A stretch of DNA of 45,337 nt from contig VXLT01000301.1 of the NCBI GenBank assembly GCA_009841475.1, forward strand, positions 1 to 45,337, given 5' to 3'. Position 1 is the stretch's first letter, and each line of letters opens with the position of its first letter. Source of the DNA: Gemmatimonadota bacterium. Lineage in GTDB: Bacteria; Gemmatimonadota; Gemmatimonadetes; Longimicrobiales; Gaopeijiaceae. The translations under genes and the position numbers were made by a program. Of the stretch, positions 30,703 to 39,019 are shown piece by piece. The notes below the pieces were generated by a model. That model was not told the DNA's origin and ran no database searches. It was given only the letters and a program-made list of their open reading frames with translations.

Positions 30703-31458
30703 ATGCACGCACAGGACGCTTCGGGGGGCGGGAACGGTATGGGAATCGGACACGGGGGAGGGGGCAGGCTCGCATATCTGGGATTCGGTCTGGCCGCCAC
30801 GGGCGTCGCGACGATCCTGCTCGTCCACTGGATGGTTGCGTTCTGGGTGCCCACGGAGGCGGCCCAGGGGGTGGTGCAGAGGATCTTCTACATGCACGTC
30901 CCGGCCGCATGGACGACCTTCCTCGCCGTCGCCGTCGCCGGACTGGCGAGCGCCGCGTACCTGTGGCTGGAGGACGAGCGGGGGGACATGGCCGCGGTCG
31001 CGGCGGCGGAGGCGGCGCTCGTCTTCGGCGCGATCGTGCTCCTCACGGGCCCGCTCTGGGGACGGCTCGCATGGGGGACCTACTGGACCTGGGAGCCGCG
31101 CCTCACCCTTACCCTCCTGCTATGGTTCAGCTACCTCGGATACTTCATGATCCGCGGGTCGGTCGCCGACCCGCGGAAGGGGAGGCGCTTCGCGGCGGCG
31201 GTCGCGATAATCGGCGCCCTGAGCATCCCGCTCAACCACGTCAGCGTGGTCTGGTTCCGCTCACTCCATCCCGAGCCCGTGGTCCTCAGGACCGAGGGCC
31301 CTTCGCTGCCCTCCGAAATGCTGGCCACGCTCATGACTTCGCTGGCCGGGTTCACCCTGTTGTTTTTAGGCATCTTCACGGTCCGCTATGCAATGGAAAA
31401 CCTCTTACGGCGCCCGGCATCGGGCCCGCCACCCGGCAGCGACGGAGCGTTTACATGA
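30703..31458 (+). CDS. ccmC: Haem-handling membrane protein CcmC
   Basis: CcmC presents haem to CcmE through its tryptophan-rich loop. The 251-residue polytopic protein has the loop LAWGTYWTWEPRLTLTLLLW at about 122-141 and the two flanking His in FYMHVPAAW and IPLNHVSVVWFRSLH. An N-terminal Gly/His-containing extension of some 20 residues (HAQDASGGGNGMGIGHGGGG) is unusual. The reading frame starts with ATG ten bases after ccmB; the stop overlaps the next gene (ATGA). With CcmE of the CxxxY type, CcmC would load haem onto a Cys. Confidence 0.94.
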   Translation: MHAQDASGGGNGMGIGHGGGGRLAYLGFGLAATGVATILLVHWMVAFWVPTEAAQGVVQRIFYMHVPAAWTTFLAVAVAGLASAAYLWLEDERGDMAAVAAAEAALVFGAIVLLTGPLWGRLAWGTYWTWEPRLTLTLLLWFSYLGYFMIRGSVADPRKGRRFAAAVAIIGALSIPLNHVSVVWFRSLHPEPVVLRTEGPSLPSEMLATLMTSLAGFTLLFLGIFTVRYAMENLLRRPASGPPPGSDGAFT

Positions 31459-33296: not shown

Positions 33297-34673
33297 TCAG
33301 ACCTCACACCCGAGGGCCCGGGCGAACTCGGGCGTGAGGTCGGCGGCGGTGTCGATGTCGGACTCGACCTCCAGGAGAGTCACGTCCAGCCCCGCCGCCC
33401 GCGCGCGCTCCAGGGTCTCACCGGTCACGGATCCGGTGCTCCAGCGGATGCCCTTGAAGAGTTCGGGCCGGGGACGGCTCAAGCCGAGCAGGTAGTACCC
33501 CCCGTCGCGCGAGGGACCCAGCACCACATCCGCCGAGTCCAGCCCCTCCAGGGCCCGGCGGATTGTTCCGTCGTCCACTGCCGGCGCGTCCGTCCCGATG
33601 ACAATGACCCGGCTCGACGACTCGAACGCGCGGTCGAACATCCGCGACATCCGCGCGCCCAGGTCCCCGGATCCCTGGGGCCAGTAGCGCGCTGCCCCGG
33701 GGCCCAGCCACTGACGAATCTCATCCTCGCCGCCGCCGGGTGTGTAGCATACGGTGACCGTGGCCGGAGCGTCCGCCACCTGACCGATCACAACGCGGCC
33801 CATGCGCCGGTACAGCGTCGCCGCGCGCTCGTCGCCCAGCGTGCGGGCGAGACGGGTCTTGACCGCACCGGGGCGTGGTGCCCTGGCAAAGACGAGCAGG
33901 GTGGCGGGCGCGGCCTCCCGGTCAGGGCGTGATGGGCCTGCGTGGTTCTCCGCGGTCCGGCCGGCCCCCGGCCTCGCCGGCCACCTGCGGGTGGGATACG
34001 CGGCGGCCAGTGCGGCGGGATCGGCCCCCGCCAGGAATCGCGAAACCAGGCGTATGTTGCGGAGAACGGCCCGGACGGGACCTTCCTCTTCGTAGCGGCG
34101 CGGGCTGGTGGTGACGGTCGCGGGCAGGGTGCGGAGCCGCCCCATGCGCCGGAGCCTTCGGTTCAGGATCACGTCCTCCATCAGCGGCACGTCGGGGTAG
34201 GCGCCCGACTGGAGGAACAGGTCGCGCCGGATCAGGAGTCCCTGGTCCCCATAGACCAGGCCGAGGGCGCGTTCGCGGACCCGCTGTCCCCACTCGACGA
34301 CGCGGTAGAAGCGGCCGGGGTGTCCGAATGCGAGCGCGAAGCAGGCGGCGTCGGGCCCGCCTGCGCGCACGTAACGGTCGATGACGGCGAGGGCGAATTC
34401 GTCCAGGCGCGAGTCGGCGTGCAGAAAGAGGAGCCAGGGGGCCGCGAGGAAGGCGGCGCCGGCATTCATCTGCCGGGCCCGGCCGGGGCGGCTCCGCAGC
34501 ACCACGGCGCCACCCGCCCGGGCGGCCCGCACCGTCTCGTCGCGTGAACCTCCGTCGACGACCAGCAGCTCTGTGGGCAACGCGAGGCGGGACAGATCGG
34601 CCAGCAGGCCCGGCAGTGTGCCGGCTTCGTCCAGCGCGGGGATGACGACGCCGAGCGCGGGGTCGGTGGCCAC
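33297..34673 (-). CDS. GT2 glycosyltransferase (TIGR04283-type) fused to DUF2064 nucleotidyl/glycosyltransferase (TIGR04282-type)
   Basis: The 458-residue protein has two catalytic-type domains. Residues 1-215 are a GT2 domain: LGVVIPALDEAGTLPGLLADL, VVDGGSRDETVR, a DxD-like FLHADSRLDEF, and VYGDQGLLIRRDLF. A 35-residue Pro/Arg-rich linker follows. Residues about 250-458 are a DUF2064/GT-A domain: LLVFARAPRPGAVKTRLARTLG, VIGTDAPAVDDGTIRRAL and GPSRDGGYYLLGL. These families, usually separate genes, are named for arsenosugar clusters. The GTG start directly follows the upstream TAG stop with no gap, so the fusion is translated by coupling to the VTT-DUF547 gene. The substrate is unknown; no radical SAM ArsS is seen here. 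Confidence 0.85.
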   Translation of the reverse strand: MATDPALGVVIPALDEAGTLPGLLADLSRLALPTELLVVDGGSRDETVRAARAGGAVVLRSRPGRARQMNAGAAFLAAPWLLFLHADSRLDEFALAVIDRYVRAGGPDAACFALAFGHPGRFYRVVEWGQRVRERALGLVYGDQGLLIRRDLFLQSGAYPDVPLMEDVILNRRLRRMGRLRTLPATVTTSPRRYEEEGPVRAVLRNIRLVSRFLAGADPAALAAAYPTRRWPARPGAGRTAENHAGPSRPDREAAPATLLVFARAPRPGAVKTRLARTLGDERAATLYRRMGRVVIGQVADAPATVTVCYTPGGGEDEIRQWLGPGAARYWPQGSGDLGARMSRMFDRAFESSSRVIVIGTDAPAVDDGTIRRALEGLDSADVVLGPSRDGGYYLLGLSRPRPELFKGIRWSTGSVTGETLERARAAGLDVTLLEVESDIDTAADLTPEFARALGCEV

Positions 34674-36191
34674 CTACTTCGGGATGTCGTTGAGGGTCCA
34701 GTCGTAGTCCGTGAAGACGAGCCGTACACCCGGGTCTTCCAGTGCCTCACGCGCAGCTCCCTGGACATGGCCCGCCAGGAACGCCCTCACGCCGTCGTGT
34801 CCTCCGAAGTCCTCGCTGAACCAGTTCAGGAGTTCGTTCACCCGCACGGTGGGCTGGCCTCCGGAGTTGTCCACGCCGAAGTGGAGGGGGTCGCCCACGA
34901 ACGCCATCACGCGCGAGTCGAGCTGCTCCTCCAGCGTCTCGGCCCGGTACGCCTCCCGGATCAGCGGGGGACAGCTGATCGCGGCGCAGTTGATGGCGAA
35001 GTGAATCCTCGGCTCCCCCATCGGACGGATGATCTCGTGCTCGATCTCGTCCTGTGAACGCTCCGCGCCCGCGACCGGACAGTGAGCTCCCGTGAAGACG
35101 TCCCCGATCTGCCAGACCGAGTTGGCCGGGCGGCCGGAAACGGCGTTTCTCACGCCGCGCAGGCCGCGGGCCGAACGGATCGGGTAGTGGGAGACGACCC
35201 GCTTCAGCATGCACGCATTGTAGGCGTTGATCCAGAAGGCGAGACGTTCCTCGCGGGAAGCGCCGGCGACGGCGTTCGGGTCGGTGGCCTCCAGCTCGGC
35301 GATGTACCGTTCGAGGCCGGACGGATCGGCCGCCAACGCGGCGTAGTCGACGCCGGCGTCAGTGACCACCGAGGCGAGGACTGCCGTCAATGCCGAATGG
35401 TCGGGCAGGCCGGAGGCGGGCTCCTGCGCGGCTGCGCCCCGGGTTGCGGCCGCCCCGGCGCAGAGGAGGACGAGGGCGCCCATGCCGGGAAGCCGGATTC
35501 CCAGACGCTTGAGCAGGGCGGGCAGGAAGCTGAGGAGCACCAGCAGCCCTCCCGCGATGAACACCTGCACAAGGGCTTGGGTGCTGGCCTCGCGCGAGCC
35601 CTCGAGCAGGGAGTCGGCGAAGAAGGTGTAGATCGCGGTCCCGGGGACGATGCCGATCAGCGTGGCCAGGGCGTAGGTGCGCCACGTGAGCGGCATCAGC
35701 CCGGATCCGAAGTTGAGGGCATTGAAGGGGACCAGCGGGATCAGCCTGAGGGTGAGCAGACCCTGGAAACCGTGCCGCCCAACCACGTTGTCGAGCTTCT
35801 CGAGGGCTCGCGAATCGTCGCCCATGAGGGATCGCACACCGTCCCTGCCAAGGGTGCGCGCGAGCAGGAAGGCCGCGTTCGCCCCGATATTGGCGGCGAA
35901 CATGTTCAGAAGCGTGCCCCACCAGAAGCCGAAAACCGCGCCTCCGGCAAAGGTGAGAATCGTCCCGGGGACGGCCAGCGCGGTCGCGCCGGCGTAGAGC
36001 GCGACGAAGATCACCGGTGCCCAGGGGTGTCCGCTCAGCCAGTCAATGAACTGGAAGATCCCGTCACGCGTCAGGTAGGTGCCCAGCGGGGTCAGCCTGG
36101 CGATCAGGAACACCCCTATAAGGAATACGGCCAGGAGGCCGAGTTTCATCAATGGGCCGGCGCGGCGGGCGTTCGAGGTCACTTCAGCCAT
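34674..36191 (-). CDS. VTT (TVP38/TMEM64) membrane domain fused to DUF547
   Basis: The 505-residue protein begins with a DedA/VTT-type membrane half: N-terminal helix, then FVALYAGATALAVPGTILTF, GAVFGFWWGTLLNMFAANIG, and the FxxLLxLRLxPLxPFxxLN segment GLLTLRLIPLVPFNALNFGS. After a last hydrophobic helix and cleavage-like AAAQEPASG, residues about 265-505 are DUF547: LAFWINAYNACMLKRVVSHY, IHFAINCAAISCPPLI and the terminal DYDWTLND. The DUF547 half should face the periplasm. These two families are usually encoded separately; here they are one gene. It overlaps the flavoprotein gene by 13 bases. VTT proteins move lipids or small molecules; DUF547 is uncharacterised. Confidence 0.88.
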   Translation of the reverse strand: MAEVTSNARRAGPLMKLGLLAVFLIGVFLIARLTPLGTYLTRDGIFQFIDWLSGHPWAPVIFVALYAGATALAVPGTILTFAGGAVFGFWWGTLLNMFAANIGANAAFLLARTLGRDGVRSLMGDDSRALEKLDNVVGRHGFQGLLTLRLIPLVPFNALNFGSGLMPLTWRTYALATLIGIVPGTAIYTFFADSLLEGSREASTQALVQVFIAGGLLVLLSFLPALLKRLGIRLPGMGALVLLCAGAAATRGAAAQEPASGLPDHSALTAVLASVVTDAGVDYAALAADPSGLERYIAELEATDPNAVAGASREERLAFWINAYNACMLKRVVSHYPIRSARGLRGVRNAVSGRPANSVWQIGDVFTGAHCPVAGAERSQDEIEHEIIRPMGEPRIHFAINCAAISCPPLIREAYRAETLEEQLDSRVMAFVGDPLHFGVDNSGGQPTVRVNELLNWFSEDFGGHDGVRAFLAGHVQGAAREALEDPGVRLVFTDYDWTLNDIPK

Positions 36192-37588
36192 TGGATCACC
36201 TTCTTCAGGGTTCGCCCCGCCGGCGTGTCCAGGCGGGAGCGGAGGAATTCGGCGGACGCCCTTTTCACGCCCTCCGCCATGGTGGGGTAGGGAAAGATGG
36301 TGTTTGCGATGGCGCTCAGCGTCAGTCCGTTCTGCTTCGCCAGCACGAAGGGAAGAATCAGGTCGCCGGCCCCGTGCGCCACCACCGTGGCGCCCATGAC
36401 CTTCCCCTTCCTGTCGGCGGAGACCTTCACGTAACCGACCGCGGTCCCGTCGACGATGGCCCGGTCAAGGTCGTCCATCCCGTACCGGTAGACCGTCCCC
36501 CCGGCCGCGGCCGCCTCCGCTTCCGACATGCCCACATGCGCCACCTCGGGATCGGTGAAGGTGACCCGGGGGACGTTGTCGTAGCGGATCTTCGTCCTCG
36601 CCGGCAGGATCGCGTTGCGGAGCGCCACCTTGGCCATGTGGTCGGCCACGTGGGTGAAATGCATCGCGTCGGTGACGTCGCCGACCGCCCATACGGTCCG
36701 CGCCGAGGTGCGCAGGAAGGGATCCACGACCACCGTCCCACGGTCGGTGCGGATGCCCGCGGCATCGAGATCCAGTCCCCTTGTGAAGGGACGCCGGCCC
36801 GTGGCGACGAACACCTCGTCCACGGCGACCGGATCTCCCACGCCGGCCTCCACTACCTTGCGGCCTCCCTCGCTTCGCACAGCGGTCACGGCGGCTCCCG
36901 TGCGCACCTCGATGCCCTCCTCGGCGAGCAGGCGCTGCATGAACACCGCCACGTCGGGATCCTCCCTGATGAGGATGGCCGGAGCCATCTCCAGCACCGT
37001 GACCCGCGACCCGAGCCGGGCAAAGATCTGCGCGAACTCGGTCCCGATGGGCCCACCACCCAGGATCGCGATGGACTCGGGCAGCTCGTTTTCGTCGAAG
37101 ACCGTCTCGTAGGTCCAGTAGCCCGACTCCCGCAGGCCCGGGATGGGCGGGATGGCCGGCACCGCCCCGGTTGCGATGACGAAGCGCTTCGAGCGGATGG
37201 TGCCCACACCGTCCACCTCCACAGTGGATGGACCGGTGAAGCGGGCGGCGCCGAAGTGCACGGCAACACCCATCTTGCGGAATCGCTCGGGGTCGTCGTG
37301 GTGCGCGACGGTGGCTCGGGCCGACCTCATCCGCTCCATCACCGCCCGGAAGTCGTGGGGGTGCTCCGCAGGACGGAGCCCGAGGGCTCGCGCTTCGTTC
37401 ATCTGGTGCGCCAGGCGGCCCGAAGCGATCAGTGCCTTGGACGGCACGCAGCCGGTCCAGAGGCAGTCGCCCCCCAGCGCGGACTTCTCGACGATCGCCG
37501 CGTCCAGGCCCATGTAGGCGGCCCCCGCGGCGGAAACCAGTCCTCCGGTGCCGCCTCCGATGGCGACGAGATCGTATGTGGTGTTCAT
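36179..37588 (-). CDS. MerA-like FAD-dependent disulfide oxidoreductase
   Basis: The 469-residue flavoprotein has FAD-binding VAIGGGTGGLVSAAGAAYMG, the redox disulfide Cys42/Cys47 in GGDCLWTGCVPSK, an NAD(P)-binding ILGGGPIGTEFAQIF, and VWAVGDVTDAMHFTHVA. The C-terminal interface reads IFPYPTMAEGVKRASAEF, which matches mercuric reductase (FPYLTMVEG) rather than lipoamide dehydrogenase (HxHPTxxE). The substrate-side C-terminal Cys pair of MerA and its N-terminal metal domain are both missing, so Hg(II) reduction is doubtful. The family is often found with VTT and DUF547 genes. The ATG at 37588 was chosen for the FAD fold; the open frame is far longer upstream. Confidence 0.9.
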   Translation of the reverse strand: MNTTYDLVAIGGGTGGLVSAAGAAYMGLDAAIVEKSALGGDCLWTGCVPSKALIASGRLAHQMNEARALGLRPAEHPHDFRAVMERMRSARATVAHHDDPERFRKMGVAVHFGAARFTGPSTVEVDGVGTIRSKRFVIATGAVPAIPPIPGLRESGYWTYETVFDENELPESIAILGGGPIGTEFAQIFARLGSRVTVLEMAPAILIREDPDVAVFMQRLLAEEGIEVRTGAAVTAVRSEGGRKVVEAGVGDPVAVDEVFVATGRRPFTRGLDLDAAGIRTDRGTVVVDPFLRTSARTVWAVGDVTDAMHFTHVADHMAKVALRNAILPARTKIRYDNVPRVTFTDPEVAHVGMSEAEAAAAGGTVYRYGMDDLDRAIVDGTAVGYVKVSADRKGKVMGATVVAHGAGDLILPFVLAKQNGLTLSAIANTIFPYPTMAEGVKRASAEFLRSRLDTPAGRTLKKVIQWLK

Positions 37589-37653: not shown

Positions 37654-37672
37654 CGATTCCGCCATGGAATCG
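37654..37672. promoter_or_regulatory. Inverted repeat CGATTCC-N5-GGAATCG, candidate operator
   Basis: Perfect 7-base arms lie at 37654-37660 and 37666-37672, 66 bases upstream of the flavoprotein start. A dimeric regulator of that reverse operon could bind here. The reverse-strand -10 is not obvious nearby, so the function is tentative. Confidence 0.4.
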
Positions 37673-37782
37673 CCCGCTGGTAACGATACCTTGATCCTGC
37701 CGTTCGTGATCCCGGGTTCCATCGGCAGCGATCCCGCACGTGCCGGCTCGCGGCGACGTCCGCCCTTGCAGGGTCGGACAGC

Positions 37783-37927: not shown

Positions 37928-39019
<1,092 letters not shown>

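Follow-up and report, generated by a model that had tools for sequence, protein, structure and literature searches.

A three-gene operon in a member of the Gaopeijiaceae (Gemmatimonadota) brings together five domains that in other phyla accompany the arsenosugar enzymes ArsS and ArsM, and does so in a genome lacking ArsS. The window, 45,337 nt of contig VXLT01000301.1, harbours genes for a MerA-like flavoprotein (MER), a fusion of a VTT membrane domain to DUF547 and a fusion of a GT2 domain to DUF2064 (Table 1). On the best reading, these represent the same accessory set as is found with ArsS and ArsM elsewhere, here free of ArsS and inherited independently of both enzymes; the set either serves another molecule or reflects an undescribed form of the arsenic pathway. 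Judged from the sequences, the chances are evenly balanced that the five domains constitute one pathway module, compressed into three genes and decoupled from arsenosugar clusters, which would build and move a glycosylated, perhaps lipid-linked, product.

Table 1. Features of the three-gene operon, in window coordinates
Feature	Position	Strand	Evidence or remark
MER, MerA-like flavoprotein disulfide reductase, 469 aa	36179..37588	-	Pfam/NCBIfam; best solved relatives are mercuric reductases
Redox-active CxxxxC (C42, C47)	37448..37465	-	Sole cysteines of MER
FPYPTMAE motif	36272..36295	-	Alignment: Tyr where GR/LPD have catalytic His; MerA has FPYLTMVE
VTT + DUF547 fusion, 505 aa	34674..36191	-	ORF and Pfam; 17/18 genus genomes
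VTT (DedA/TVP38-type) membrane domain	35616..35972	-	PF09335, 98.8 bits (cut-off 33.9)
Hydrophobic segment and Ala-rich linker between VTT and DUF547, signal-peptide-like	35427..35504	-	Hydropathy scan
DUF547 domain	34896..35261	-	PF04784, 91.0 bits (cut-off 27)
GT2 + DUF2064 fusion, 458 aa, GTG start	33297..34673	-	ORF and NCBIfam
GT2 domain, TIGR04283	33996..34655	-	222 bits (cut-off 182)
DUF2064 domain, TIGR04282, CofC/MobA-like nucleotidyltransferase fold	33336..33899	-	202 bits (cut-off 134)

All five domains were matched by Pfam or NCBIfam profiles, with each fused pair lying within one ORF, which bears out the three-gene set and both fusions proposed in the initial annotation. The tight junctions described there stand in part: the GT2-DUF2064 start codon directly follows the TAG stop codon of VTT-DUF547, with a gap of zero, but the supposed 13-base spacing is, from the ORF coordinates, an overlap, with VTT-DUF547 starting at an ATG 13 bases before MER ends. 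The operon is flanked on one side by recA (37928-39019, plus strand) and on the other by a gene at 30703-31458 that, from its sequence, is putatively ccmC-like; neither tRNA genes nor curated Rfam families were found in the window. Two candidate features upstream of MER were rejected: a perfect inverted repeat 67 bases away (37655-37671), considered as an operator, has one unconserved arm and similar near-matches are expected by chance, and a 26-codon ORF whose end coincides with the MER start codon lacks conservation among relatives. Its ATG shares the reading frame of MER in several of them, though not in the window, and the stretch at 37663-37700, upstream of MER, is conserved and contains an ATG; the position of the MER start codon may be shifted in the window relative to these relatives.

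MER consists of Pyr_redox_2 and dimerisation domains (Pfam). No cysteine follows residue 47, meaning the C-terminal vicinal pair of MerA is missing, and Pfam detected no heavy-metal domain in the protein, exactly as had been described for a flavoprotein retaining only the CxxxxC motif. Against the MerA model TIGR02053, it scores 391 bits, under the cut-off of 454. When aligned with solved relatives, MER has a tyrosine at the catalytic histidine position of glutathione and lipoamide reductases, and the surrounding YPT (or PYLT) is kept in nearly all MER homologues among the matches listed. Because this tyrosine, within a MerA-like motif, replaces the catalytic histidine, the substrate of MER is probably something besides an ordinary disulfide.

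In the second protein, a hydrophobic, signal-like segment precedes DUF547, and the domain is therefore predicted to be placed outside the membrane; stand-alone DUF547 relatives begin with similar leaders. The alignment of DUF547 sequences has the invariant motifs NxYN, IE[HN], H, CxxxxCPxL and YDWxLN. Although the structure of the domain was modelled with confidence (pLDDT 91.8), Foldseek searches with this model against the PDB and BFVD gave no match at E <= 0.001, leaving the idea of a papain- or transglutaminase-like enzyme unsupported. VTT proteins of the COG0398 group have been suggested to be phospholipid scramblases (PMC10127716), a group to which the VTT domain of the operon, assigned here by PF09335, may belong.

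The DUF2064 domain of the third protein matches 3cgx (E = 4e-34) and the 3-phospho-D-glycerate guanylyltransferase 7p97, but scores only 42 bits against the CofC model TIGR03552, under the cut-off of 105. It has the invariant motifs VKTRL, GTD and DGGYY, while the GT2 domain retains DGGS, HAD and ED. By itself, GT2-DUF2064 is widespread and adjoins unrelated genes; no shared pathway emerged from its neighbours in Nitrospira and Rhodobacteraceae. Those in Nitrospira include a dCTP deaminase and a lysine-aminomutase-like radical SAM protein.

A scheme consistent with these domains can be proposed. The CofC/MobA-like DUF2064 domain would activate a sugar-phosphate with a nucleotide, and the fused GT2 domain would pass the activated sugar to a small-molecule or lipid acceptor at the cytoplasmic face. 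MER, with NAD(P)H, might keep a reactive electrophile reduced, presumed not to be a disulfide because tyrosine replaces the general-acid histidine of true disulfide reductases. VTT could then carry or scramble across the inner membrane either the product itself or the lipid bearing it, and DUF547, which the fusion would keep at the outer face, would complete the product. From the sequences we infer that the domains may jointly carry out the activation and transfer, the reduction, the translocation and the extracytoplasmic completion of one product. An envelope-glycolipid or thiol-redox pathway, as the initial annotation suggested, is possible.

The association of these components with arsenic metabolism is evident in other phyla. 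On the Acinetobacter portensis plasmid pJNE5-X3, a single row comprises arsS, a VTT-MER fusion, DUF547, TIGR04283, TIGR04282 and an ArsM-like methyltransferase, followed by a phosphate transporter and then mtnP on the opposite strand. Related arrangements occur in Burkholderia glumae and Cupriavidus, and a locus in Hydrogenedentota has VTT+DUF547 beside ArsS. Among 80 loci retrieved with a GT2-DUF2064 alignment, and hence selected by similarity and scored with thresholds of our choosing, a link to ArsS, an ArsM-like protein or a related radical SAM protein was present at 10 of the 12 loci outside Gemmatimonadota that include MER, VTT or DUF547, as against 3 of the 60 GT2/DUF2064 loci there without any of these (p = 3e-8). 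Together with the Acinetobacter row, this upholds the tie between the component families and arsenosugar clusters that had been noted in the initial annotation. By contrast, only one of the seven Gemmatimonadota loci with MER, VTT or DUF547 had such a link. This exception, a family member (locus L135, genome G215), has the order MER-VTT-GT2=DUF2064, after which come another VTT and a radical-SAM/ArsM-like fusion; the arsenic link has therefore not been wholly lost in the family. The refuting condition set in the initial annotation, that close homologues always adjoin arsenic genes, thus had a split outcome: ArsS or ArsM genes adjoin distant homologues, but not the close ones, L135 excepted.

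Several further cluster types were observed in these comparisons. Fusions of a radical SAM domain to an ArsM-like methyltransferase, approximately 830-870 aa long and with a CC end, are present at L135/L246:5252-7741, L171, L244, L247 and L248; they score under all curated ArsM and ArsS cut-offs, and may be a C-As enzyme that has yet to be described. At L176 and L192, single ORFs combine an ArsS with an ArsM-like domain, each of them complete. L130 and L132 are a related cluster type, in which a VTT-MER fusion is found with a YnjBCD-like ABC transporter and a CDP-alcohol phosphatidyltransferase, with neither ArsS nor GT2; L130 additionally has DUF547 and a sterol desaturase.

Within Gemmatimonadota, the module does not track the arsenic enzymes. 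The window contains neither arsS nor arsM, as first noted, and the absence of ArsS extends to the whole genome, in which the best match to TIGR04167 scores 53 bits (cut-off 300), and to all 18 genomes of the genus, none of which has ArsS over the cut-off. The further suggestion that no arsenic gene accompanies the operon holds for the window but not for the genome, where contig C168 contains an arsM scoring 298.9 bits (cut-off 263), the operon being on C352. This gene (L233:5156-6034 of G000) encodes 292 aa with conserved Cys motifs, and is surrounded by WD/FG-GAP-like and MFS genes rather than by an ars operon. Neither a C-As bond-forming radical SAM protein nor a radical-SAM/ArsM fusion was found in the genome. 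The co-occurrence check proposed with the initial annotation was run on a survey of 198 genomes of the class, including 61 of the family and 18 of the genus, and revealed no association: ArsS is present in 3/43 genomes with the module and 12/155 others (p = 1.0), and ArsM in 27/43 and 104/155 respectively (p = 0.59).

Nevertheless, the module might still serve arsenic, with methylated arsenicals from the unlinked ArsM being converted, independently of ArsS, to an arsenosugar-like or arsenolipid product and MER reducing As(V) forms. The genome's own ArsM, with its conserved cysteines, accords with this, as do the presence of ArsM in 16 of the 17 module-bearing genomes of the genus, the company that the accessory set keeps with ArsS and ArsM in other phyla, the fusion beside the set at L135 and the MerA tyrosine motif in MER. 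We nonetheless consider it unlikely, given that the module and ArsM are unassociated in the class and also in the family (23/39 against 10/22; p = 0.42), that in G006, a single-contig genome, the module is present and neither ArsM nor ArsS exceeds its cut-off, and that ArsM is unlinked in a genome in which no radical SAM enzyme forming C-As bonds was found. Somewhat less doubtful, although still short of an even chance, is an undescribed, arsenic-independent envelope pathway, the accessory genes of which were recruited by the arsenosugar clusters of other phyla, or from which the arsenic enzymes were shed in Gemmatimonadota. In such a pathway, the five domains would produce a nucleotide-activated sugar, attach it, bring the product through the membrane and finish it on the outside.

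That the five domains belong to one unit is indicated by their inheritance. Gene maps place the locus constantly beside recA-alaS, as well as the ccmC-like gene where the contig extends that far, and the locus is therefore vertically inherited. The same recA-module-ccm order is seen on two contigs labelled Gammaproteobacteria (L151 and L158), which are probably mislabelled or mis-binned. In the 61 genomes of the family (f1), the DUF547 subfamily and GT2-DUF2064 occur together in 38, GT2-DUF2064 alone in one, DUF547 alone in none and neither in 22 (Fisher p = 1e-15), these counts being tallied by hand, uncorrected for phylogeny, drawn partly from incomplete assemblies and dependent on some analyst-chosen score thresholds. 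All 38 module genomes have MER, alongside VTT in 36. In 23, MER is at the recA locus, and in 15 it lies elsewhere: as a VTT-MER fusion in seven, adjacent to VTT in six and at a contig edge, with the MER segment alone visible, in two. The six adjacent pairs are of another lineage, and because the seven fused MERs cluster with proteobacterial VTT-MER fusions in a quick maximum-likelihood tree, the native copies seem to have given way to foreign VTT-MER. MER-VTT is found in only 2 of the 22 module-negative genomes (G092 and G104), in each case alone. The retention of MER elsewhere in all 15 genomes, and the rarity of MER-VTT without the module, argues that the five domains function together, although these two genomes, and G157, which has GT2-DUF2064 and VTT without DUF547, mean that the unit is not strictly indivisible.

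An improbable alternative is that the operon comprises partly separate jobs, a flavoprotein and VTT dealing with metal or thiol stress and a glycan pair plus DUF547 unrelated to these, with nothing but the vertical inheritance of the recA-ccm region keeping them together. Such a division would fit the 15 family members that keep DUF547-GT2-DUF2064 at the recA locus with MER-VTT gone from it, the wide distribution of GT2-DUF2064 beside unrelated genes, and the occurrence of VTT-MER without GT2-DUF2064, whether with DUF547, the YnjBCD-like ABC transporter and the CDP-alcohol phosphatidyltransferase or, elsewhere, with transporter and transferase. It is at odds, however, with those same 15 genomes holding MER at other sites, 13 of them with VTT, with the translational coupling of the genes and the fusion of VTT to DUF547, and with the assembly of the same set in other orders by other phyla. 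The near all-or-none co-inheritance, maintained in relatives by off-locus MER and VTT of other lineage, instead favours the initial proposal that all parts work on one substrate.

The fusions, which had been thought unusual in themselves, are on their own unremarkable: those of GT2 to DUF2064 have been found repeatedly across several phyla, and VTT+DUF547 is likewise found beside ArsS at a Hydrogenedentota locus. Of the 18 genus genomes sampled, 17 have the operon, among them a single-contig assembly. Across the class survey, the VTT-DUF547 fusion was found in the same number of genus members, in some other members of the family and in another family as well, namely in four genomes at approximately 42% identity, where its loci (L087-L090) lack the other partners as neighbours. 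GT2-DUF2064 fusions are common across the family. A locus from another part of the class, L109, encodes the five domains as five separate genes in unchanged order. That the fusions are artefacts of chance or annotation, through lost stop codons or misassembly, can be dismissed as next to impossible, since although the window comes from a 369-contig assembly, both are present at 63-81% protein identity in independent assemblies, including the single-contig G006 and G032.

The association of TIGR04282 and TIGR04283 with ArsS is already known, being part of the family names; what is new is that the five parts recur as a set, that this set is compressed into three genes, the way in which its parts are replaced, and that in this family it is independent of ArsS and ArsM. 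In the open-access literature, subscription papers being outside the scope of the search, no paper was found on DUF2064 or TIGR04283, and only passing mentions of TIGR04282, in two papers; likewise, nothing was found in it tying DUF547 to arsenosugars, or mentioning any two of DUF547, arsenosugars and TVP38 jointly. The phrase 'arsenosugar biosynthesis' in the names of these two glycosyltransferase families is spread by annotation pipelines and cannot safely be relied on in this lineage of Gemmatimonadota, where the set is inherited without regard to either ArsS or ArsM. Conversely, the module points to partners of ArsS for the largely uncharacterised late steps of arsenosugar formation, and offers a gene set with which to probe the roles of the VTT protein and DUF547.

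Of the known systems, arsenosugar-type clusters, with ArsS (TIGR04167; its chemistry has been reported, according to a citation in PMC12159101), ArsM, TIGR04282 and TIGR04283, have all five accessory domains in common with the operon, but the genome described here has no ArsS, its ArsM is unlinked and no phosphorylase lies beside the operon. The pJNE5-X3 row shares the order VTT/MER, DUF547, GT2, DUF2064, although in the operon the fusion partner of VTT is DUF547 instead of MER, and GT2 and DUF2064 are joined. The same MER and VTT families make up bifunctional TVP38/TMEM64 (VTT)-FAD-dependent oxidoreductase proteins, Pyr_redox being the commonest fusion partner of COG0398 DedA proteins (PMC10127716); by contrast, MER and VTT in the operon are encoded by separate, overlapping genes, and MER is of a different clade. 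Similarly, the DUF2064 domain shares its fold family with 3cgx and the CofC and 3-phosphoglycerate guanylyltransferases, yet falls under the CofC cut-off and is fused to GT2. Mercuric reductase MerA has the CxxxxC and FPY-T motifs in common with MER and supplies its best PDB matches, but MER differs in having neither the C-terminal Cys pair nor the heavy-metal domain, in scoring below the TIGR02053 cut-off and in overlapping a membrane-protein gene by 13 bases.
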